Below are positions 9,920 through 21,996 of a stretch of 64,000 nt of DNA, one piece after another; position 1 is the stretch's first letter; the number at the start of each line of letters is the position of its first letter. The DNA is from Nitrospirales bacterium (lineage in GTDB: Bacteria; Nitrospirota; Nitrospiria; Nitrospirales; UBA8639): contig JAJDVY010000020.1 of NCBI GenBank assembly GCA_022825885.1, forward strand, positions 1 through 64,000. The letters are read 5' to 3'. Position numbers and translations under genes: made by a program. The notes under the pieces were generated by a model. That model did no database searches and was not told the origin of the DNA. It saw only the letters and a program-made list of their open reading frames with translations.

Positions 9920-12900
9920 TTATGATTGACGCTGAATTACCTCCACCAGTTCTGCTACGACTGTGACCTCGCCTTCGTCTTCGCCGGAGAGAACGATAGG
10001 ATCGAACTCGGGATTATTCGGCTTTAATGTAATCTTTGCGTGCTGCCAGGAATCATCATGCTGGACCTTTTCGCTTTCGTACCGTTTAACGGTGTACCGC
10101 GCCCCGGTTTCGGGGTCGGTGGCATCACGAAGCTGAACGAGCACAATCTTCCCTTGGCGAGTGCCCTCCACGGGGGAGCGGAACAAGCCGTAGGCGCCGT
10201 CGGGGACAGCAGGCTCCATTGACCGGCCTACGATTTGCGCAACGAACATTCCGGGTCGCAGACGGCGTCCTGTGCTTACCTCGACCCACTTCAAATCCTT
10301 ATCGGCTTCCACATTTTGGGTATTGCTGAAAGCGCCAGCCGCAACCGCAAGTGGTACGAGGGGAATGCAGGTGACATAGCGATCTTTTGGTTGTCCTTCT
10401 ACGATCCGCAAAGCTGGCGGTAAGGCTTCGTCGGGTTGAACTTGGTCTGAGGGTTCATCGCCAACTCGAAACCGATGGTACACCTCGGAACTTATCCATC
10501 TGCTCACAACTTGTTGGAATGTCTCGTCGTTCATGTACCGGATGAAGATTTCCTCGTTCTGGTCCATTCGCTCGACAAATAGATTCTCAAGCAGGTTCTT
10601 GAACACTAACTCGAATTTGTCGCTAGAGTTGACCGCTGCTGCCTGTCGCAGACCATCATCGGCGACTGCCGCTTCGACAATCTGGTCGAAGAAGAGCTGA
10701 TCGGCTTGGTTGAAGTCCGTGCCGAAGCGTTCGTTCACGATGTCGATGAGTTGAGAAAGCGGCATGGGCTGAGGCCGCACCAAGCCGCTACCGACCTCCG
10801 TGGGACCGTCAAGGGGTCTGGCTTCACCGTCCTGAAGCGAGATGGATCCCTCGCTGATCTTCTGCAGCCGGTAGTACTCGAGCCTCACCTCGTCATCGAA
10901 CTGATAAGCCGGGCCTCTCTTGCGGCGCGGTAATTTTGCCACGAGATGGCGGAGAAACACGTACAGCCGTTCGAGATCCGAGTCCTGATACGGAATCATC
11001 TGGCTCAGGAATCCATACAGGTTCAAAAACGCTTGCACCTTGCCGCGCCAATCTTCAGCCTCCTCTTCGTTGTCGTTCCGGTGGGCCGTGAAGCGTGATA
11101 CCGCCGGATCAAGAGCGGCATTCATGGTCCGGTGGTCCAGCGCACTCTGCTGCAGCTTCTGCTTGAAGTAGATGGCGCTGAACCGCTCAACTTCCTCGTC
11201 GAGGTAGATTCCCGACGAATCCAGCTCACCTTTGATGACGTACATGCGAACGGGATCGACTTCTTCACCCATCTCAGCGCCCTCATAGTAGGTCTTGAAG
11301 GCTTCGCGAATCTCCTCCCGGTCGTTAACGAAGTCGAGCACAAACGTGTCTTCCTTAAGCGGATGAATGCGGTTTAGTCGAGATAATGTCTGCACGGCTT
11401 GGATGCCCGCGAGCCGCTTGTCTACGAACATCGTGTGTAGGAGAGGTTGATCGAACCCGGTCTGGTGCTTCTCCGCGACGAGCAAGACTTGGTATTCCTG
11501 TGTCGCGAACTTCTCAGGTAGCTCTTTCTCGGAGATGCCGTGGTTCATACCCGGCTCGGTGTAGGTGACGTCCGCGAGCTTGTCGTCCACTACCTTGCCC
11601 GAAAAGGCCACCAGCGACTTGATGGCGTAGCCCTTCGCCTGGATGTAGCGATCGAAGCTCTGCTTATAGCGAACCGCTTCCAAGCGCGAGCCCGTTACCA
11701 CCATCGCCTTGGCTCGACCACGGATCTTATGTCGCGTGACCGCTTGGAAGTGTTCAACCATTACCTCGGTCTTCTGCGCGATATTGTAAGGATGCAGCTT
11801 CATAAAGTGCGCCAGCGCCAGCGCGGCCGTCTTACGCTCGACGTTGGGATCTTCCTCGCAGGCCTTGAGCAGCCGGAAGTACGTCTCGTACGTGGTGTAG
11901 TGCTTCAGTACGTCAAGGATGAACTCCTCCTCGATTGCTTGCCGCATGGTGTAGCGATGCGAGGGCTGTCCATCGCGGCCGAATACGGCGAGTGTCTTGT
12001 GCTTGGGCGTGGCTGTGAAGGCAAAGAAGCTCAGGTTCGTCTGCTTGCCGCGCTTGGCCATGCTGCGGAAGACCTCTTCCATATCTTCCCGGCCTTCATC
12101 TTTTGCACGCTTTTTGGCTTCCTTCTGAAGCTCATCACCGCCGAGCACTTCCTTTAGATCGGTTGCCGTTTCGCCGCCTTGGGAACTGTGTGCCTCGTCC
12201 ACGACGACGGCGCAACGCCGGGTGGCGAGCGTGCCCGTGCCGGTCGTTCCGCGTTCCTCGGCCATCTTGAGCAACTGGCGCGAGACGAAAGGGAATTTCT
12301 GCAGGGTGGTGATGATCACCGGCACTGCGTTCTCAAGCGCTTCGGCGAGTTGTCGCGAGCTTTCATCGATCCGCTGCACGACGCCCCGCTTGTGTTCAAA
12401 CTGGTAGATCGTGTCCTGGAGTTGCTGATCAAGCACGACGCGATCGGTGACCACGATCACGCTGTCGAAGACGCGCTCGTTGGCGGCATCGTGCAGGGAT
12501 GCGAGCCGATGCGTCAGCCAACCGATCGTGTTGCTCTTGCCGCTACCAGCAGAATGCTCGACGAGGTAGTTGTTTTCCACGCCCTCGCTACGTGCGGCGT
12601 CCACCAGCAGACGTACCGCTTCGAGTTGGTGGTAACGAGGAAAGATCATAGTCTCAGTTTTGACCTTACGACCATGATCATCGCGTTTCTCGTCGATTTG
12701 CAGGTGAATGAAGCGCGCAAGCAGGTCGAGCAGGCTGTCCCGTTGCAGGACTTCTTCCCACAGGTATGCCGTGCGGTAGTTGCGGCCCTCCGGGTCCGGT
12801 GGATTCCCGGCTGCTCCGGCGGAACCCTTGTTGAAGGGAAGAAAGTGAGTGGCCGTGCCCGCCAGCCGGGTGGTCATGAGCACGGATTCAGTGTCCACGG

Positions 12901-13468
12901 CAAAATGCACCAACGTGCGGCGCTTGAATTCGAAAATTGGCTCGCGCGGGTCGCGGTCCTGCTTGTACTGACGGCGCGCATCTTCGACCCGCTGGCCCGT
13001 GAGCGGGTTCTTCAGTTCCAGCGTAACTACGGGAATGCCGTTCAGGCTGAGTGTGACGTCGATCGACTGTTCCGAGCGGGGCGAGAAGTGGAGTTGGCGA
13101 GTCAGTCCCAGACGATTGGCGGCATAGTGGACTTCGAGTTCCGGATTTAGCTCGTGTGCCGCCTTGAAGAACGCAATACGGAGCGTCCGGCCATAGCACT
13201 TGAAACCGTGGCGCAACGTCGCCAGAACGCCGTGAGTGTCCATCCACTTGCACAGGTCGCCGAGGATTTGCTCACCGGTCTTGTTGCCGTGCAGCGCCTC
13301 CAGCTTTACCCATTCCTTCGGCTGGGTCTCACGGATAAAAGCGAGGACCGTTTCAGGAAAGATTGCGCGCTCGCGGTCAAAGCCCTCACGCGTGACTGGC
13401 ATATATCCGTTCTCAAGCAGGTGTGCTTCGATGACGGTCTCGAAGGCCTTTTCGCTCGTGCGCTTCAT
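9920..13468 (-). CDS. hsdR: Type I restriction enzyme R subunit fused to a LexA/S24-like domain
   Basis: The protein has 1182 residues. The N-terminal nuclease has the HsdR signature DVTLSLNGIPVVTLELKN. An SF2 motor follows, with AGSGKS, DEAH and TATPK motifs. The last ~140 residues are not HsdR. They form an S24 peptidase domain with an Ala-Gly site (VPLAVAAGAFS, about A1044-G1045), a catalytic-type Ser1083 (GRSMEPAVPDG) and Lys1128 (YTVKRYE). The 38-residue A/G-to-Ser and 45-residue Ser-Lys spacings fit LexA/UmuD/repressor proteins. HsdR translocates and cuts unmodified DNA with HsdM and HsdS. The added domain suggests DNA-damage-triggered self-cleavage. It lies 5 kb from hsdM/S but on the same strand. 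Confidence 0.93.
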   Translation of the reverse strand: MKRTSEKAFETVIEAHLLENGYMPVTREGFDRERAIFPETVLAFIRETQPKEWVKLEALHGNKTGEQILGDLCKWMDTHGVLATLRHGFKCYGRTLRIAFFKAAHELNPELEVHYAANRLGLTRQLHFSPRSEQSIDVTLSLNGIPVVTLELKNPLTGQRVEDARRQYKQDRDPREPIFEFKRRTLVHFAVDTESVLMTTRLAGTATHFLPFNKGSAGAAGNPPDPEGRNYRTAYLWEEVLQRDSLLDLLARFIHLQIDEKRDDHGRKVKTETMIFPRYHQLEAVRLLVDAARSEGVENNYLVEHSAGSGKSNTIGWLTHRLASLHDAANERVFDSVIVVTDRVVLDQQLQDTIYQFEHKRGVVQRIDESSRQLAEALENAVPVIITTLQKFPFVSRQLLKMAEERGTTGTGTLATRRCAVVVDEAHSSQGGETATDLKEVLGGDELQKEAKKRAKDEGREDMEEVFRSMAKRGKQTNLSFFAFTATPKHKTLAVFGRDGQPSHRYTMRQAIEEEFILDVLKHYTTYETYFRLLKACEEDPNVERKTAALALAHFMKLHPYNIAQKTEVMVEHFQAVTRHKIRGRAKAMVVTGSRLEAVRYKQSFDRYIQAKGYAIKSLVAFSGKVVDDKLADVTYTEPGMNHGISEKELPEKFATQEYQVLLVAEKHQTGFDQPLLHTMFVDKRLAGIQAVQTLSRLNRIHPLKEDTFVLDFVNDREEIREAFKTYYEGAEMGEEVDPVRMYVIKGELDSSGIYLDEEVERFSAIYFKQKLQQSALDHRTMNAALDPAVSRFTAHRNDNEEEAEDWRGKVQAFLNLYGFLSQMIPYQDSDLERLYVFLRHLVAKLPRRKRGPAYQFDDEVRLEYYRLQKISEGSISLQDGEARPLDGPTEVGSGLVRPQPMPLSQLIDIVNERFGTDFNQADQLFFDQIVEAAVADDGLRQAAAVNSSDKFELVFKNLLENLFVERMDQNEEIFIRYMNDETFQQVVSRWISSEVYHRFRVGDEPSDQVQPDEALPPALRIVEGQPKDRYVTCIPLVPLAVAAGAFSNTQNVEADKDLKWVEVSTGRRLRPGMFVAQIVGRSMEPAVPDGAYGLFRSPVEGTRQGKIVLVQLRDATDPETGARYTVKRYESEKVQHDDSWQHAKITLKPNNPEFDPIVLSGEDEGEVTVVAELVEVIQRQS

Positions 13469-13469
13469 A

Positions 13470-13823
13470 TCACTCCCGCACTCGAATGCGCGATTCTTCT
13501 ACGATCCAAAGTTGACCGTCGAGTGTCGCGTTGGAAAGAGCCCGAAGAAACCGGGTTCCGATCTCTAAAACGTGATCACGCGCTTGGCTATCGAGTCGAA
13601 ATACGACAAGCCCGGAATATGCACTAGGTGGGAACGTTCGGATGTCCGAAAAGTCCGTATCGAACGTGACGATGGCTCGGCTCTCACGAACGCAGGCTGA
13701 CGCGAGATCATCGTCCCTCACGCCGCCGAGTCCCTGGTCGAGAACCGTCACGGCGTCATGTCCGGCCTCGCGGAACAAATCTGCTAGTCCGACCGGCAGG
13801 TTCTCGTCCAGCTTGAACCGCAC
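13470..13823 (-). CDS. DUF5615 PIN-like protein (probable toxin)
   Basis: The protein has 117 residues and starts at GTG 13823. MRFKLDENLP, the central DDDLASACVRESRAIVTFDTDF block and an RFLRA tail are typical of DUF5615, a PIN-like fold with the conserved acidic residues of RNase-type toxins. It sits 10 bp after a DUF433 gene, the usual antitoxin partner, so the two form a VapBC-like module. It ends 1 bp before the hsdR start region and may be co-transcribed with it. Confidence 0.85.
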   Translation of the reverse strand: MRFKLDENLPVGLADLFREAGHDAVTVLDQGLGGVRDDDLASACVRESRAIVTFDTDFSDIRTFPPSAYSGLVVFRLDSQARDHVLEIGTRFLRALSNATLDGQLWIVEESRIRVRE

Positions 13824-13833
13824 ACGGAATATC

Positions 13834-14061
13834 CTACTCTGACAATGAAACTACCCGTTCGTTCGCCAACTCTGCGGCATAGCACACGGCCGCTTGGATG
13901 GACTCTCGACTGATCGATGGGTAGCTTCTCATGATTTCCTCCGAATCCAGACCTGCCGCCAGATTGTCGAGGACCGTGGTTACCAGGACTCGGGTGCCGG
14001 TGATGCAGGCCCTTCCATGGCAGATTTCAGGATCAACGGTAATGTGTTCTCGCCAATTCAT
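13834..14061 (-). CDS. DUF433 protein (probable antitoxin)
   Basis: The protein has 75 residues. The ATG at 14061 is chosen because AGAGGACAA precedes it and the DUF433 core begins there: MNWREHITVDPEICHGRACI, then GTRVLVTTVLDNLAAGLDSEE and YPSISRESIQAAVCYAAE. DUF433 proteins have a winged-helix-like fold and pair with DUF5615 toxins. The open frame extends upstream to 14280, but that part does not resemble the family. Confidence 0.85.
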   Translation of the reverse strand: MNWREHITVDPEICHGRACITGTRVLVTTVLDNLAAGLDSEEIMRSYPSISRESIQAAVCYAAELANERVVSLSE

Positions 14062-14338
14062 AGGCTTTGTCCTCTCATCATGATCTCGGTATGCTGGAGC
14101 CATTGCGTGTTGGATAGCACCGGTTACATCGGCAACCAGACGGCGTGAGATGTCCCGAAGTGCCTCCTGAATTTCGCTGGCTGCCCTTGGTCGGTTTGAT
14201 TGCCTGAGCACGGTAACGGCTCGTTGCGTCGAGTCAGTAAAAGCATCTGACCCTCTGTACATAATTTGCCCTTCAAGCATTTCCCATCCAATTCCGTATA
14301 TGTGAGAGCCATGGTGTTACTTTAGCTAGTCAGATTGG
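14062..14338. other. Stretch without recognisable gene upstream of the DUF433 gene
   Basis: An open frame continues upstream of DUF433 to 14280 and encodes a helical sequence without a recognised domain. It could be an N-terminal extension, a remnant or chance. No RNA gene or clear promoter was seen. Confidence 0.4.
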
Positions 14339-14548
14339 TCATAGCAACCACGTTCCCTGGTTCAACACATTTCGGACATCAGGCAGCCGCTGCCAAGGTA
14401 GCGAAATGTTCGTGGCCCTCATGTCGAGCGAGGAGTGTGGTCTTTCGCCGTTGAGATAGCGGATGTAATTGAGGAAGTCGAGACCTTTCACGTCACTAGG
14501 AAGGGTGGAAAAACGCAGGAAATAGTCTTCCCCGCAAAAGTCTGCCAA
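14339..14548 (-). pseudogene. Transposase fragment (rve/IS3-type C-terminal end)
   Basis: A 69-codon frame contains FLNYIRYLNGERPHSSLDMR, which resembles the YxxYNxxRPHSxLxxxTP segment at the end of DDE integrase-type transposases of the IS3/IS481 kind. Nothing upstream supplies the rest of the enzyme, so it is a scar of an insertion between the toxin-antitoxin pair and the TPR gene. The assignment rests on this motif alone. Confidence 0.5.
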
Positions 14549-14682
14549 TAGGGATTTTCACCCAGTGCTTAACCACTTCCTCGCCATGAAAGACCAAACG
14601 TGTTTGAGATACTGCAAGCCACCATGGGATGTTACAGAAAGTAGAAATTAAAACAGTCTGTCATGCTGAAAATCCAGGTTAT

Positions 14683-16638
14683 TCAGGTTCGACGAGTTAG
14701 TAGAATTGGGAAGTCTCTCTGGAGTTTCGACGATAGCTGATGCGTTGGGAATCGTCGTATCGCTTCCTTCCAGGTTGCCATTGCGTCTGCCTCGTTTTGA
14801 GAATTCCAATAGACGCCTCCCAGATTAAACCAAGCCAGATCGTAGTTTTCATCCAGTTGCAGGGCACGCTTGTAGGCATTGATACATCCTTCAACATCGC
14901 CAGTTCCTTCCCTTGCGACCGCAACCTGGAACCAGCTCATTGCGTTCGGTTGATGTTCTTTTGCCTGCGGCAGCAGTATAGGTAATGCCTCTTCATACCT
15001 GCCCAGGAAATTCAATGCGGTTCCTAGACAATACCCGTATTCGGCGGGCGACAGATCAAAAGCTTTACGATAGCATTTCTCAGCCTCTGACCAATTCTTT
15101 TCGTCTTGGGCCCAGTGGCCGGCTCGATCCCATAAAAACGCTGGGTTCGGTGCGCCACTGGCCACAGCATCCGCAACGGTCTGTTTGAACCCATCATAGT
15201 CACATTCGGCTTGGCCACCATTAGCGTGGATAAGCCAGACGCAAAGTAGTCTCTCTCTTTGAGCGAGTAGGTCGTCAGTGAATCTTCTCAAGTATGTGTC
15301 CCAAAATTGGACTGAGTCTTGGGCCGAGTCGTAAGACGTTCTGCCGTATGTCGCCACCAGTCTTGCACACCATGGCCATACCCAATCCAGCTCATCTCTA
15401 TCGCCCAATAGGGCACGAATATCGCGAAATGCTTCCTTTATTTTTCCCTGCTTGAACAAGATCTCCGCGCGCCAACCCTGCACCGACGGCAATGTTCCCG
15501 CAGAATTGGCAGGCCATACGATAGCGTCCAGGTGCTCCAGGGCACGATCAAGGTCTGCGTTTTTGCGATTATGCCAGAGAGCCAGTGCGAAATGTGCCTC
15601 AGCGAGGTTGGGGTCCAACTCCAGTGCCCGTGTGTAGCAAGCGTGGGCTGCATCAAGTGCGTTCATCTCCTCCATAACCGTCCCAAGATTCTTGTAGCAT
15701 TGGGCAGCAATGCCTGAGGTGTTGACCTGATCCAGAGAGATCAAGGCGGAATTATAGGCATCCCTTGCTTTTTCATGCTCGCCTATGGCGAGCCAGCCAT
15801 TGCCAACGCAGTAAAGCAAAGACCCTGGCTGGAACACTCCGTTATCGATGGCACTGCTTATAACGTTGATTCCATCGACAATACGGGACTTGTTGCATTC
15901 CCTTCCGTTTAGCCCTAAATTGATTTCGGCCATGTATGCGAGCATGAACTTCCCGTTCGAAGCACCGAGGATTGAGCGGAACTTGTCAAAGGATCGGCTT
16001 ATTGTTCTGTCATGACCGTTGTCATAAAGCTTGGCGAGCATCTCTGCTGCTTGTTGTTGATCAGCGGGAACGGGCAGGTCGATTGTTCCCTCTTCTAGGA
16101 AGGAGGATATGTTTTTGGGAGGGTGCGTCGCAAAGTGCAAGCGATGGTCTCTCGCCCCTTTCGCACAAGCAACGACATATGTCTTCAGGGTTCGTTGAAA
16201 GCTTTGGTCAAAATCATCCTTAAATCTTACCGTGACGGTTGTTTGATCGCCCCAACGTTTACCGTTGTGCTCATATTCGCGGACAACGCCATCAACCCTT
16301 CGCACCAATAGACGCTTTGAAGAGGTATGGTAACAGACGAAAATCGAGCCAGGCTGCATAGCCAGATAGTTCAAGTTCGTTCTGTCGATGGACAGGCTAA
16401 CGGAACCATCTGCATTTTTCTTGCGGCCGGTCCCTTTCAATTGGACGTGTACTCTGACATTTGTCATTGCCCCGGCGTCGCTGGCTTCAATCTGAAAGTC
16501 GGTGCCGTAGTCACGCTCGTCCTCTGATTGAACGACAAACTCTCCACATTCAGATATTGCCGTTCGGAAAGCAGTTCGGGATTGCTCTTCGATCCTGCGG
16601 TTCCCATCGCGTTTGGGAAGATCGTCTAAGTAGGACAT
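14683..16638 (-). CDS. DUF4365 nuclease-like domain with TPR repeats
   Basis: The protein has 651 residues from ATG 16638; a TTG start at 16671 is possible. Residues ~10-150 look like DUF4365, a PD-(D/E)xK-type fold: RDYGTDFQIE supplies the acidic residue (D47) and VHVQLKGT the Q-x-K (Q66, K68). The rest is helical tetratricopeptide repeats, for example CYKNLGTVMEEMNALDAAHA and FALALWHNRKNADLDRALEH. This domain pair suggests a nuclease or DNA-binding head with a protein-interaction scaffold. Its place between ptuB and hsdR suggests defence. No function is proven for this combination. Confidence 0.7.
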   Translation of the reverse strand: MSYLDDLPKRDGNRRIEEQSRTAFRTAISECGEFVVQSEDERDYGTDFQIEASDAGAMTNVRVHVQLKGTGRKKNADGSVSLSIDRTNLNYLAMQPGSIFVCYHTSSKRLLVRRVDGVVREYEHNGKRWGDQTTVTVRFKDDFDQSFQRTLKTYVVACAKGARDHRLHFATHPPKNISSFLEEGTIDLPVPADQQQAAEMLAKLYDNGHDRTISRSFDKFRSILGASNGKFMLAYMAEINLGLNGRECNKSRIVDGINVISSAIDNGVFQPGSLLYCVGNGWLAIGEHEKARDAYNSALISLDQVNTSGIAAQCYKNLGTVMEEMNALDAAHACYTRALELDPNLAEAHFALALWHNRKNADLDRALEHLDAIVWPANSAGTLPSVQGWRAEILFKQGKIKEAFRDIRALLGDRDELDWVWPWCARLVATYGRTSYDSAQDSVQFWDTYLRRFTDDLLAQRERLLCVWLIHANGGQAECDYDGFKQTVADAVASGAPNPAFLWDRAGHWAQDEKNWSEAEKCYRKAFDLSPAEYGYCLGTALNFLGRYEEALPILLPQAKEHQPNAMSWFQVAVAREGTGDVEGCINAYKRALQLDENYDLAWFNLGGVYWNSQNEADAMATWKEAIRRFPTHQLSSKLQRDFPILLTRRT

Positions 16639-16812
16639 ATATCTCGCATGCCGGTTTACTAAGTTGACCAAGCTTTAGCATATGCCTTTAGAGTTTGGGC
16701 AAAGGGCACCACGTGTGCAGTCATGTCTTCGTTTAACGTACTTGATTATGTGCGGAAGTGTTTCCGCCGTGGGTAAGCCTGATATCGCTGACATCGGAGC
16801 GGCGAATGGTGG

Positions 16813-17463
16813 TCATGCTGCCGTCCTCGCTAGCCGCTGCTCCAACCACCATACGGAAACTTGGCAGTAAGGCAATAGCTCGCCGCTGCCAGCGACCTGT
16901 TCGTCCCGTTTCCGAACGATACTGTCGCGCGACACGGGGCCGCCAAGCCGAGCCTTCTCGCGTTTCCACCAATCGAGGACGGCATCAAGCAGGCGCTTCC
17001 TATTGTTTTTCAGTTTGGGGAGGTTCAGATTCAACACGTTGTTGAACTGGCCATCGAAATCTGGCTCTTCCGAGTGGATCGAGCCATCGAGCTCGTATCT
17101 GATGTGGGTCGTGATGCGATGTGTTGGGTCGGCAGGGTTCCACTTAAGGTCGCTGTCCCCTTTCCTCGTATCGCAGTGCTGGAGGTGACCTGGTTGGTCA
17201 TGCCCGCCAAGACAGGCGCCGAGGAGATTTCGATAAATGAGTTGTTCCCCCGGATAGCGTGCTTGGCTTCTCCAATGCTCAATTTTCATGGACGATGGCT
17301 CAGGGTGGATGCGGCCCATGCAGTAGCAGCATAGCCCACGTTGCTCGGAAACGAGCGCCCTACGAAGAGCGTCCTTGGCATTATAATTGTCATAGTGACT
17401 GTGCGACGTTTTGCGATGTCCGATCAGGCTCGCCGGTTCAGGGCTCTTGGTGATTGACCTCAT
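16813..17463 (-). CDS. ptuB: Septu-type HNH endonuclease PtuB
   Basis: The protein has 216 residues. A His-Asn-His nuclease is visible: CCYCMG zinc knuckle, MKIEHWRSQ, YRNLLGACLGGHD and HCDTRKGD. This is the TIGR02646/PtuB pattern. Its ATG overlaps the stop of the upstream ATPase gene by 4 bp (ATGA), so the two are translationally coupled. In Septu, the ATPase PtuA assembles with PtuB, and the complex degrades DNA during phage infection. The same pair also serves as effector in Ec78-type retrons, but no reverse transcriptase is present here. Confidence 0.8.
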   Translation of the reverse strand: MRSITKSPEPASLIGHRKTSHSHYDNYNAKDALRRALVSEQRGLCCYCMGRIHPEPSSMKIEHWRSQARYPGEQLIYRNLLGACLGGHDQPGHLQHCDTRKGDSDLKWNPADPTHRITTHIRYELDGSIHSEEPDFDGQFNNVLNLNLPKLKNNRKRLLDAVLDWWKREKARLGGPVSRDSIVRKRDEQVAGSGELLPYCQVSVWWLEQRLARTAA

Positions 17464-18710
17464 CCCTCGCCCTCTATGAAGTCGAGGAGGGTTCTGATTC
17501 GGGTCACTTCGGGATCAACCTCCCCCAGCAGTTCGACGAGTTGGGCCAGAGATTGACGGGCATGCTCGTACCGCTGTTTGCCGACTTCCTTGGACACCTT
17601 CTTGAGCAATTCATCGACTTCCGTGGCGCGTGGGGGTGAATCCATGATCTCTTCGAGCACCCGGCTTGAGTCTATTCCAAACGAATGGGTGGGTGAGTAG
17701 ACCTCACCATCCGCGATGATCTGGATGCGGTCGTGTTCGACCTCACCGATGACCTGTGGCGAATGGGTTGTCGCGATGAACTGACATTTCGGGAATGTCT
17801 CGGTGAGGTTATTGACGATCCGCCGCTGCCAACTCGGATGAAGGTGAAGCTCGATCTCGTCGATCAGAACGACCGCCTCAGCCTCGGCGGCGGGGTCCTT
17901 CATCTCGGGGTTGGCCTGTGCCAACCGACGGGTCAGGTCCAACACCATCGCCAGCACGCCACGCTCGCCATCCGAGAGTTGGGCCACTGGTAGAGGCGTA
18001 TCGCCATGATCGATAAGAAGATTCGGCGATGTCTCGTCATCGATCCGAAGGTTGGAGTACTCGGGAAGAAACCTCGACACTGCCGCTCCGAACGCTGCAA
18101 GAACGCACTTGGCGGACGGCTGTTCCGCCGCCAACGTCTGCTGTACCCGCATCCACGCCGCGAAGTCGCCAAGCAGGAGATTTCGGTTGGCGAATGCATC
18201 GGCGCATGCCGCGGCAATTCCCCCAGCCGCCACAAGGTTCGACGGTTCCCGTGCAGATGTGAATGCACGGGGCGTCATGAACAGCATTGCGAGTGGGCGT
18301 CCGTCTCTGGGCACCGTCAAGCGGGATGGTGTGTCGCCGGTGAAGCCTGCCTTCGCGGGCGTGTCGTGGACCTGTGCCCGCGGCTCGCCCGCTTTCTTCT
18401 CTCGGGCGACACTAGTTTCGCGCGGATTGTGGACAAGGTAGGTGAACGCAGCCCCATCGAGTTGGACTTCGCATTCGGCAGTCAGCGCCTCGGTTCCAAT
18501 ACGAAGATCGTTTGAAGAAAACGGCCGTACCTTGTATTTCAACCCGTTGGCGTACTTGACGACCGCCGACAAGCACACGCCCAAGGCATCAAGCACACTT
18601 GTCTTGCCGACGCCATTCACTCCGACGATCAGGTTAAAGCCCGGCTGAAATCGAAACTCAGCGATCTCAATCGCACGGACGTTTGCAAGCTTAAGCGACG
18701 TGACTCTCAT
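17460..18710 (-). CDS. ptuA: Septu-type ABC/SMC-like ATPase PtuA
   Basis: The protein has 416 residues. The Walker A motif is GVNGVGKTS (30-38). The ABC signature LSDGERG, the Walker B block AVVLIDEIELHLHPSW and the switch histidine ATTHSPQV follow in order, so this is an OLD/RecF-type ATPase without a TOPRIM nuclease domain. It overlaps hsdS upstream and ptuB downstream by 4 bp each, so it is made from the hsdMS transcript. It is the sensor/scaffold partner of the HNH nuclease. RloA-like ATPases in type I loci are an alternative label, but the HNH partner favours Septu. Confidence 0.8.
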   Translation of the reverse strand: MRVTSLKLANVRAIEIAEFRFQPGFNLIVGVNGVGKTSVLDALGVCLSAVVKYANGLKYKVRPFSSNDLRIGTEALTAECEVQLDGAAFTYLVHNPRETSVAREKKAGEPRAQVHDTPAKAGFTGDTPSRLTVPRDGRPLAMLFMTPRAFTSAREPSNLVAAGGIAAACADAFANRNLLLGDFAAWMRVQQTLAAEQPSAKCVLAAFGAAVSRFLPEYSNLRIDDETSPNLLIDHGDTPLPVAQLSDGERGVLAMVLDLTRRLAQANPEMKDPAAEAEAVVLIDEIELHLHPSWQRRIVNNLTETFPKCQFIATTHSPQVIGEVEHDRIQIIADGEVYSPTHSFGIDSSRVLEEIMDSPPRATEVDELLKKVSKEVGKQRYEHARQSLAQLVELLGEVDPEVTRIRTLLDFIEGEG

Positions 18711-20011
18711 GATGCACCCTCCAACTCAATGCGACCGGTTACCGCCGTAGCGATGAGTGCCGCTCGGCGCTCTTTGAGCAATTCTATGGTGCGCTCGGTC
18801 GTGAAGCTCAAAGCGTCCAGTCGAGCTGTCTTCTGATCGAGGAAGTCGGCGATGGCTCTTTGTTGGGGCAGGGGTGGGGACGGAAGCCTAATATTTCCCA
18901 TTTTTTCCTGGGTTAGCTTGTCCCGGGTGCTGCCCTCGATATGCGGACCGTAGTCTGTCGCATTTAGACAATAGGTAACGAAGCGTGGGTCGAAGTTTCG
19001 TCCAATCCTCAAGACATGAATATGGTTATTGACCCAGATCTTTCCGGTTACGAAGAAAGCAACCTGTCTGGTCGAATCAAAGAACGGTGCACCATCTTCT
19101 CCGATTAGGACCAAAGGCTCATTGAAAAGGTATTCATCAATAGAATCAACGACTCCGTTGGCACCCCAATACGGGTACTCTCCTTGTCTACGTGATCGCT
19201 GTTCGATGTTGAGCGGTATCCGGCATCCGTCGAGACAAATTGACGCATATCTAAGTTGGGTCGTTCCCCAGCCATCCGGAAATATTGGTGCCAGTTGATC
19301 AGCCACAGCACTCCTTCTGTCGCCTCTCGTAGCAGGTGCATGATCTTCTCCTGCCACTTGCATCACGTCGATCTGACCGGTCACAGCCTTAGCGATAAGC
19401 ACCGCTCGGCGTTCCTTCAGGAGGGCTATTGACCGCTCTTTGGTCACAATCAAGGTATCCAGCCGTTCCGTTTCACGGTCGAGGTAGTCGGCGATGGTGC
19501 GTTGTTGCGCGAGAGGTGGAACCGGTAGCCTCATCGTCCCTATCTCCGACTTCGGTATCCCGAAGCGCGTGACACCGTTCGCCGCCAACTCAAGCTGCAT
19601 CCGAACCGGCTTTGCTTGGAGGCATCGGAACAGAAAAGCCCCATCCATTTTTTGTTTTAAGGGACGTAGAAGCGCGAGGTGATATCCGCACACAAGGTCG
19701 CCAGCAGTCTCCCGCACCAGAGCAGGTACGCCGATGTCGTCCCACGATTCTGAGTCTTTCGTGATGATCACGTCATCAACCACTACCCCAAACTTTGCAA
19801 TCTCAGCCTCTGATGCGGTGGCTTGCATGAGGTCAAGTGCAGGCGTGATGAACTCGTTGTTGTAGACATCCTTGTAATTGCAAAGTCGAACGGGAATCTC
19901 GCCGTCGTTCGACACTTTATCAACATTGCTAACTACGTAGTTCGCTGCTGAGCGCAGAGGCTTCGTGTCCCAGTTGTCGGGTAGTTGATCGGTCCAAGCG
20001 AGGAGACTCAC
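18707..20011 (-). CDS. hsdS: Type I restriction specificity subunit
   Basis: The protein has 434 residues. It has two target-recognition domains, each followed by the same ~50-residue helical unit: PPLAQQRTIADYLDRETERL at 165-214 and PPLPQQRAIADFLDQKTARL at 379-428, both running to LLKERRA.LIA.AVTG.I. It reads the bipartite DNA target and bridges two HsdM subunits. It overlaps hsdM and ptuA by 4 bp. The duplicated spacer units are natural recombination points for domain exchange. Confidence 0.93.
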   Translation of the reverse strand: MSLLAWTDQLPDNWDTKPLRSAANYVVSNVDKVSNDGEIPVRLCNYKDVYNNEFITPALDLMQATASEAEIAKFGVVVDDVIITKDSESWDDIGVPALVRETAGDLVCGYHLALLRPLKQKMDGAFLFRCLQAKPVRMQLELAANGVTRFGIPKSEIGTMRLPVPPLAQQRTIADYLDRETERLDTLIVTKERSIALLKERRAVLIAKAVTGQIDVMQVAGEDHAPATRGDRRSAVADQLAPIFPDGWGTTQLRYASICLDGCRIPLNIEQRSRRQGEYPYWGANGVVDSIDEYLFNEPLVLIGEDGAPFFDSTRQVAFFVTGKIWVNNHIHVLRIGRNFDPRFVTYCLNATDYGPHIEGSTRDKLTQEKMGNIRLPSPPLPQQRAIADFLDQKTARLDALSFTTERTIELLKERRAALIATAVTGRIELEGAS

Positions 20012-21996
20012 TTTGTCACCTCACGCAGTAAACGCATGATCTCTTCCTCCGCTTGTTTCAGTTCCGCGTCGATCTCTTCTAACGGGCGTGGCAGCGTGTA
20101 CTTGTAGAAATGTCGGTTGAAGTTTATCTCGTAGCCGACCTTGTCTTTGTTACGGTCCATCCAAGCGTCGGGCACGTGGGGGCACACCTCGCGTTCAAAG
20201 TAGGCTTCGATGTCGTCCTTGAGCGGCACGTTCTCGAAATCACGCAGGTCGGCATCCGGCTCATATCCGTCGGCGGACACGCCCTCGGCGACGGGCTCGG
20301 CTTCGGGGTCTTTCTGCGTGAAGACGCTACGGAAGAGCTTCTGCTCGGTCACTTTCCATCGCGACCGCCGCTCGTTTAGGAGATCGGCAATACGCTCCCA
20401 TACGGAATTCCAGTCGTTAAGAGGCTCACGACCAAGCGCTTTGTCGATGGCTTGGACATCGTCGAGCAGGTGCGGACAGGCATCGAGGAAGCGGGCCTTG
20501 TCTTCTACGGTCATCTGGTAGCGAAGGCGCAAGGGCCGCTCGACGGTGACGCGCGTATAGCCGAAATCGGCATTGTCGAAGGTTTTGGAGGTCTCGCCGT
20601 CGATCTGGCGGCCGTAGAGTTGCACGATCTCGGCGACCTGTTTGCCGGTGAAGTGGCGGCGCTTGTCGCCGAGGCTGCGCTTATTGTCCTCGCTGCCGCC
20701 TGCTGTCCATACCTCACGTGCGTCCAGAAGTTGGATTTTGCCCTTACGCCGCTTCTCCTTGCGGTTGGTAACGATCCAGATGTAAGTGCCGATCCCGGTG
20801 TTGTAGAACATCTGCTCGGGCAGAGCGATGATAGCTTCGAGCCAGTCGTTCTTGATGATCCACTTGCGGATGTCGCTCTCACCGGAGCCTGCGCCACCAG
20901 TGAAGAGAGGCGAGCCGCTGAAGACGATGGCGAGGCGCGAACCGTACTTGTGTTCCGCTGGCCGCACGGGTTCACGTTTGGCCCACATGTGCTGCAAGAA
21001 GAGCAACGAACCGTCATTCACCCTTGGCAGTCCCGCGCCGAAGCGGCCTGCGAAGCCCTGCTTTTCGTGTTCACGCTTGATTTCGTTCTGCTGTCGCTTC
21101 CAATCGACGCCAAACGGGGGATTGGTTAGAAAGTAGTCGTAGGTCTCGCCGTCGAACTGGTCTTCGGTAAAGCTGTCGCCATACCGGACGTTGTTGCCTG
21201 TACCATTGTGGTCCACTTGCTTCATCAGCATGTCGGATGCCGCGGTGGCGAAGGCACGTTTGTTGTAGTCCTGACCGTAGACATAGAGTTTGGCCGCGCC
21301 ATGGTGCTCACGTAGGTAGTTTTGCGCCTCAGCGAGCATGCCGCCGGTGCCGCAGGCGGGGTCGAGCAGTTTGCGGACGGTGCCGGGTGTGGCGAGCAGT
21401 TTGTCGTCGTGAATGAACAGGACGCTCACCATCAATCGGATGACCTCGCGCGGCGTGAAATGGTCGCCCGCGGTCTCGTTGGCCAGTTCGTTGAAGCGCC
21501 GGATGAGGTTCTCGAAGAGAAGTCCCATCTGCTCGTTCGGCACCGTGTTGGGGTGCAAGTCGACGTCACAGAACTTCGAGACGACGAGATAGAGGATGTT
21601 CGCCTCGCGCATTCGCTCGATCTCGTTCTCGAACTCGAAGAATTCGAAGATGTCGCGCACATTCCTGGAAAAACCCTTGATGTAGCTGACGAGGTGCTTC
21701 TCGACATTGTCGGGGTCGCCCTTGAGCTTCTTAAAATCAAGGTCGGAGCGGTTGTGGAAGCGCTGGCCGGCGACCTTGTTTAACCGAAGGTCCAAGGCCT
21801 CGCCTTCGACCTTACTACCCTTGCGCCGTGTGTATTCGGCCAGGACCTTGGCTTTCGACGAGGCAAGCACACAGTCGAAGCGGCGCAACACGGTCATGGG
21901 CAACATGACGCGCTCGTACTGCGGCGGGCGGTAGGGGCCACGTAGCAGGTCAGCGATTTGCCAGATCAGGTTGGCGAAGTAGCCGTGGTCGGGCAT
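20008..21996 (-). CDS. hsdM: Type I restriction-modification adenine methyltransferase subunit
   Basis: The protein has 662 residues. An N-terminal HsdM helical domain precedes the S-adenosylmethionine motif LLDPACGTGGML (210-221) and the catalytic N6-adenine motif NPPFG (292-296). The C-terminal part is a long helical region for HsdS contact. It methylates the host target sites and forms the core M2S complex. It is the first gene of the hsdM-hsdS-ptuA-ptuB run. No strong ribosome-binding site precedes its ATG. A promoter with an internal inverted repeat lies at 22032-22060. Confidence 0.95.
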   Translation of the reverse strand: MPDHGYFANLIWQIADLLRGPYRPPQYERVMLPMTVLRRFDCVLASSKAKVLAEYTRRKGSKVEGEALDLRLNKVAGQRFHNRSDLDFKKLKGDPDNVEKHLVSYIKGFSRNVRDIFEFFEFENEIERMREANILYLVVSKFCDVDLHPNTVPNEQMGLLFENLIRRFNELANETAGDHFTPREVIRLMVSVLFIHDDKLLATPGTVRKLLDPACGTGGMLAEAQNYLREHHGAAKLYVYGQDYNKRAFATAASDMLMKQVDHNGTGNNVRYGDSFTEDQFDGETYDYFLTNPPFGVDWKRQQNEIKREHEKQGFAGRFGAGLPRVNDGSLLFLQHMWAKREPVRPAEHKYGSRLAIVFSGSPLFTGGAGSGESDIRKWIIKNDWLEAIIALPEQMFYNTGIGTYIWIVTNRKEKRRKGKIQLLDAREVWTAGGSEDNKRSLGDKRRHFTGKQVAEIVQLYGRQIDGETSKTFDNADFGYTRVTVERPLRLRYQMTVEDKARFLDACPHLLDDVQAIDKALGREPLNDWNSVWERIADLLNERRSRWKVTEQKLFRSVFTQKDPEAEPVAEGVSADGYEPDADLRDFENVPLKDDIEAYFEREVCPHVPDAWMDRNKDKVGYEINFNRHFYKYTLPRPLEEIDAELKQAEEEIMRLLREVTK

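Follow-up and report, generated by a model that had tools for sequence, protein, structure and literature searches.

The window examined here, a stretch of 64,000 nucleotides from the genome of a Nitrospirales bacterium (contig JAJDVY010000020.1), contains a Type I restriction-modification operon in which hsdM and hsdS share the strand and the operon of an hsdR gene that is extended by an S24 (LexA-type) peptidase module. The operon runs in the order hsdM, hsdS, ptuA, ptuB, DUF4365-TPR, DUF433, DUF5615 and hsdR-S24, and its genes were assigned as follows.

20008..21996, minus strand: hsdM (N6_Mtase and HsdM_N; PADLOC MTase_I, E 2.8e-255)
18707..20011, minus strand: hsdS (Methylase_S; Specificity_I)
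17460..18710, minus strand: ptuA-like ATPase of the Septu/retron I-A type, within the operon (PADLOC PtuA, E 8e-111)
16813..17463, minus strand: ptuB-like HNH nuclease, within the operon (PADLOC PtuB, E 5.3e-71)
14683..16671, minus strand: DUF4365 and TPR protein, within the operon (PF14280 and TPR)
13834..14280, minus strand: DUF433 protein, antitoxin-like (PF04255)
13470..13823, minus strand: DUF5615 PIN-like protein, immediately upstream of hsdR (PF18480)
9920..13468, minus strand: hsdR-S24, 1182 aa in one unbroken ORF (Pfam; PADLOC REase_I)

The DUF5615 gene adjoins hsdR also at loci L025, L036, L037 and L053. At L025, the G012 relative, the place of PtuAB is taken by genes that by eye are Vsr-like, cytosine methylase-like and HATPase-like. 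Homologues of PtuA and/or PtuB lie upstream of hsdR-S24 at L038, L044, L045, L047, L050, L051, L054, L058, L060, L062 and L116, and none was found within 1.5 kb of the S24-less HsdR relatives, a co-occurrence that represents an association among related rows and not a test. The gap between hsdS and hsdR (13470-18710) gives the impression of a small defence island with interchangeable contents.

The HsdR protein and its S24 module

Pfam recovers HSDR_N (residues 114-204), SWI2_SNF2 (280-523), a T1R_D3-like region (648-706) and Peptidase_S24 (1038-1173) in the 1182-residue protein, and the three models of the HsdR body (PF04313, PF18766 and PF22679) all score above their cut-offs. The nuclease and motor body occupies residues 1-1002, and the parts to which we refer below are these.

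12857..13129, minus strand: HSDR_N nuclease domain, residues 114-204 (PF04313, E 1.8e-12)
11900..12631, minus strand: SWI2/SNF2-type motor, residues 280-523 (PF18766, E 9.2e-25)
10385..10462, minus strand: variable linker from the HsdR body to S24, residues about 1003-1028, poorly conserved in the alignment
9923..10384, minus strand: S24/LexA-type peptidase module, residues 1029-1182 (PF00717; AF2 and Foldseek; family of 88)
10334..10339, minus strand: predicted scissile site Ala1044/Gly1045 in PLAVAA/GAFS, with A-G conserved
10220..10222, minus strand: catalytic Ser1083 (GRSMEP), in 88/88 homologues
10085..10087, minus strand: catalytic Lys1128 (TVKRY), in 87/87 homologues

Across 26 homologues the nuclease residues D137 and E151-x-K153 and the motor motifs GSGKS (308-312) and DEAH (424-427) are invariant. 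The hsdR model TIGR00348 scores 189.6 bits, below its cut-off of 284.55 (rounded, 284.6), which is a naming threshold and not a mechanistic requirement; judged from its sequence, the low-scoring HsdR-S24 is a divergent HsdR subfamily. Homologues that lack the S24 module stop at the position of the linker, near residue 1005.

A preliminary description of this DNA had proposed a complete LexA/S24-like module at the HsdR C-terminus, and several lines of evidence bear this out. PF00717 scores 32.1 bits over residues 1038-1173, where its gathering threshold is 23.3, and the Ala1044/Gly1045 pair, Ser1083 and Lys1128 are all present at the positions originally named. The NCBIfam lexA model (TIGR00498) also matches residues 1016-1179, weakly (17.8 bits against a cut-off of 110.95), but we rejected HsdR-S24 as a LexA equivalog given that the peptidase part alone matches and that the N-terminus is an HsdR with no LexA DNA-binding domain. 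The scissile pair is A-G in 81 of 85 S24 relatives, with one further C-G as in UmuD; the P2 residue is Ala in 84/85 and P3 is Ala or Val in 81/85 members of the subfamily, and among ordinary S24 proteins of the phylum (33 candidate sites in 31 proteins) P2 is Ala in 10 and P3 is Ala in 1. The same description had placed the spacing of the site close to that of LexA and UmuD. Its count of 38 residues from Gly to Ser is correct, but with 39 from P1 to Ser and 45 from Ser to Lys the module lies nearer to lambda CI (38/43) than to LexA (35/37) or UmuD (36/37); within the phylum, LexA/UmuD-like S24 proteins mostly have the expected spacings of 34-38 and 37.

An AF2 model of residues 1008-1182, built on an alignment of 60 relatives, reached a mean pLDDT of 88 and a pTM of 0.85. 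Its 36 best Foldseek matches in the PDB are all LexA, lambda CI or UmuD with probability 1.00, including the RecA-filament complexes 8gms, 8trg and 8gmu, and signal peptidases of the same clan rank far lower. A phmmer search of the domain against PDB sequences returned nothing useful; nevertheless, the fold match together with an active site invariant in 87-88 homologues excludes a chance resemblance to S24. The full-length HsdR model is poor (pTM 0.29), and the placement of S24 relative to the motor is not readable from it. Where it could be computed, dN/dS of the S24 part was 0.09-0.10, which indicates purifying selection and is similar to the 0.05-0.09 of the HsdR body, whereas the linker is under loose selection (0.26-0.33, against 0.05-0.10 on both flanks). 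We conclude that HsdR, otherwise intact, ends in a complete and conserved S24 module that is probably self-cleaving.

Spread and history of the module

We sought the S24 subfamily in 84,980 species genomes and found 364 stretches that encode a relative; the best 80 of the 364 were fetched, and to these were added two viral contigs, one plasmid and several Nitrospirota genomes. Most members come from metagenome-assembled genomes. The module appears to be mainly chromosomal, since viral and plasmid carriers are so few (two viral contigs and one plasmid record, and no more), and a phage or plasmid origin was rejected on the same count. Of 296 Nitrospirota genomes that were sampled, 9 have the module, and in 7 of the 9 it lies in an open frame of 797-1996 aa.

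Fusions of S24 to HsdR recur in other genomes. When HsdR bodies are placed on a tree, every member of the clade that includes the window's protein (24/24) carries S24, and this clade spans Nitrospirota, Acidobacteriota, Myxococcota, Pseudomonadota, Binatota, Spirochaetota and others. L084 and L087 form another, small HsdR group that bears the module; the remaining HsdR relatives lack it and are about 1003-1058 aa long. Presence of S24 switches twice on the HsdR tree, which is better supported than the S24 tree, and on these sequences the two switches may represent two gains, or a gain followed by losses. At one further locus, L159 (G171:C1:41689-44589), HsdR has a C-terminal extension of ~150 aa that is AlbA/Schlafen-type-like by eye, in place of S24. 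It may thus be that the C-terminus of HsdR generally accepts added modules.

The N-terminal parts of S24-bearing proteins belong to unrelated groups. Partner types were assigned by Pfam and PADLOC, and some by sequence similarity.

HindI-type HsdR, S24 C-terminal: L101, L113 (Pfam); L097, L106, L107 (sequence similarity)
HindI-type HsdR, S24 inserted between HSDR_N and motor: L086 (Pfam); L070, L109 (sequence)
Type ISP single-chain restriction-modification enzymes with S24: L041, L076
Very long MZB helicase with S24, best match DruE of Druantia: L079
Schlafen-group-3 helicase with S24: L115
Type III Res-like enzymes with S24: L117, L093
Eco57I-like methylase protein with S24: L098
TnsA-like nuclease with S24: L022
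HTH repressor with S24 of the same subfamily: L064

In the inserted form at L086, S24 (421-572) is flanked by HSDR_N (110-319) and the motor (600-818). The HTH_3-S24 repressor (L064:4614-5492), which has no defence genes adjoining, may have given rise to the fused modules or be related to them. On the S24 tree the partner types interleave, their labels changing 23 times where 11 would be the minimum, and this pattern suggests repeated swapping of the module among effectors; few branches are well supported, however, and the starred branches force one change per group and no more. Two loci carry disrupted genes: in a close Nitrospira relative (L036/L023, G009:C70) hsdR-S24 is broken and its middle is missing, with the S24 end open over 256 codons, and on an Elusimicrobia contig (L103:2218-5444) HsdR and S24 lie in overlapping different frames, as a frameshift or sequencing error would produce.

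One interpretation of this spread is that a portable LexA-type cassette has been appended to or inserted into unrelated restriction and defence effectors more than once, across ~20 phyla, and would act as a general RecA-gated off-switch that ties prokaryotic immunity to DNA damage directly, at the protein level and with no need of transcription. Counted in this reading are two or more lineages of HsdR, with S24 in two positions, together with Type ISP, Type III Res-like, DruE-like and Schlafen-type helicase partners and other nucleases; we hold it tentatively, with slightly more doubt than belief.

A proposed built-in restriction alleviation and its alternatives

The preliminary description had tied restriction activity to the SOS state, and here the host genome speaks against it. 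In the window's genome, 95.5% complete, we found no S24 protein besides HsdR and hence no recognisable LexA, so that a link to a LexA-run SOS regulon was rejected. The genus as a whole largely lacks LexA, for 9 of 14 genomes have no S24 protein at all, including a one-contig genome that is 99% complete; across the phylum, by contrast, 168 of 197 genomes have one. Since LexA is missing, any link to damage would run through RecA directly and not through such a regulon, and a direct link to RecA filaments is possible: RecA is encoded in 14/14 genomes of the genus. The host also encodes ClpX and a tmRNA, whose ssrA tag is ANEELALAA.

We propose that HsdR-S24, a Type I subunit, carries its own LexA-style switch for self-destruction, in which a RecA-triggered cut would lead to removal by ClpXP and turn restriction off; belief and doubt in this proposal are evenly balanced. 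The trigger would most likely be RecA-ssDNA filaments at damaged or recombining DNA, upon which Ser1083 and Lys1128 would cut HsdR between Ala1044 and Gly1045. The released body would then end in PLAVAA-COOH, akin to the ALAA end of the host ssrA tag and to the ClpX signal of LexA after cleavage, and ClpXP would degrade it by way of this degron-like C-terminus. In the inserted forms (L070, L086 and L109) the cut would separate nuclease from motor. The predicted net effect is an autonomous restriction alleviation.

Type I enzymes threaten the host's own chromosome once repair or recombination has produced unmodified sites. In Escherichia coli restriction alleviation, which counters this, the EcoKI HsdR is degraded by ClpXP (PMC11109961, PMC12707154), and its degron is not at the native termini (PMC4231737); LexA-like proteins have ClpXP C-degrons beside the autocleavage site that are active once cut only (PMC5742171), and ClpX binds only the cleaved N-terminal fragment of CI (PMC10584840). 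Several points nevertheless call for caution, among them that some S24 proteins, such as IrvR, cleave without RecA (PMC7101444) and that most family members lie in metagenome assemblies. The VAA before the scissile Gly is seen in ordinary LexA too and may reflect the specificity of the peptidase rather than a degron, and, the host being without LexA, a co-protease role for its RecA would be an assumption of the model.

One may postulate instead that self-cleavage is constitutive or independent of RecA, set off by another trigger (HsdR dimerisation, translocation state or a phage protein) or acting as a slow timer of protein lifetime that, for example, postpones restriction after the operon has arrived in a naive cell. 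Such delay would aid establishment of an operon that is horizontally mobile across phyla, the host is without LexA, and IrvR, an S24 protein, cleaves without RecA in a dimerisation-dependent manner (PMC7101444). Yet RecA is universal in the genus, and a response to RecA is the rule among characterised LexA-like proteins (PMC7101444); we give this explanation a real but minor chance.

The preliminary description had left the direction of the switch undecided. Inactivation is favoured here by the biology of restriction alleviation, by P3-P1 residues that resemble a ClpX degron and by those relatives whose module sits between nuclease and motor. Under the opposite arrangement S24 would restrain HsdR, and its self-removal on RecA filaments during phage replication or damage would unleash restriction, much as UmuD becomes UmuD′. 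UmuD is a precedent for the same chemistry in an activating role, and a cut would leave the HsdR body otherwise complete; however, host DNA is most endangered by Type I enzymes exactly when RecA filaments form (PMC11109961). Moreover, close HsdR relatives are wholly without S24 and therefore need no such inhibitor, cleavage of the inserted forms would detach the nuclease from the motor, and the new C-terminal end is degron-like, so that we regard activation as unlikely.

Less probable still is a docking role without cleavage, in which the S24 fold would bind RecA filaments or dimerise HsdR and its catalytic residues would be incidental. The S24 domains of LexA, CI and UmuD do dimerise and bind RecA, and the three filament complexes are among the fold matches, but Ser, Lys and A-G are kept near-absolutely in ~85 proteins with different partners, which would be unexpected of a mere dock, and we consider this reading improbable. 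Faulty assembly, a frameshift or decay of the domain is almost certainly not the explanation, for despite the broken gene in G009/L036 and the displaced frame at L103, the ORF is continuous in the window and in 24/24 clade members and S24 is under purifying selection, and we rejected a frameshift or chimeric origin of the window's fusion on these grounds; the S24 match, the aligned catalytic residues and the intact frame on which the preliminary description depended are all present.

We found no description of S24 fused to a restriction enzyme in the open-access literature, in agreement with the impression that this form is without precedent; known parts, an S24 peptidase and HsdR, occur in a new combination. 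How a cell protects its own chromosome from Type I restriction during repair is a long-standing question, and the EcoKI degron for ClpXP is still missing (PMC4231737). If our proposal is true, an HsdR that carries a LexA-type peptidase would be a simple, testable, protein-level answer to restriction alleviation, S1083A and G1045D would give a clean handle on what alleviation is worth to the cell, and the spread of the module over effector types would mean that DNA damage is connected to immunity with no transcriptional regulon in between.

Comparison with known systems

The module shares with LexA, lambda CI and UmuD (S24, PF00717) the fold, the Ser-Lys dyad, an Ala-Gly upstream of the catalytic domain and the SM(E/N)P motif. 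It differs in sitting on a DNA-cutting effector rather than on a repressor or polymerase subunit, in its Ser-Lys distance of 45 (CI 43, LexA/UmuD 37) and in the nearly fixed Ala-Ala-Ala or Val-Ala-Ala before the scissile bond. As in other Type I HsdR proteins (TIGR00348), there is an HSDR_N nuclease, a SWI2/SNF2 motor and an operon with hsdM and hsdS, but the window's protein has the added C-terminal S24, and PtuAB and other cargo separate hsdS from hsdR. The HsdR of EcoKI is not known to carry an S24 module. Restriction alleviation of EcoKI would resemble the proposed system in the expected removal of HsdR by ClpXP upon host DNA damage or recombination (PMC11109961, PMC4231737); the signal there is the translocating complex, whereas the one proposed here is RecA acting on HsdR itself. 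The degrons of LexA, IrvR and phage CI likewise involve a new C-terminus at the autocleavage site that is recognised by ClpX (PMC5742171, PMC10584840), a feature that in HsdR is predicted, but they are known for transcription regulators only, whereas HsdR-S24 would have a restriction motor as its cargo. Finally, homologues of PtuA and PtuB, the effectors of Septu and retron I-A, lie in the window's hsd operon and beside hsdR-S24 in several relatives; unlike in those systems, PtuAB is here cargo of a Type I operon.
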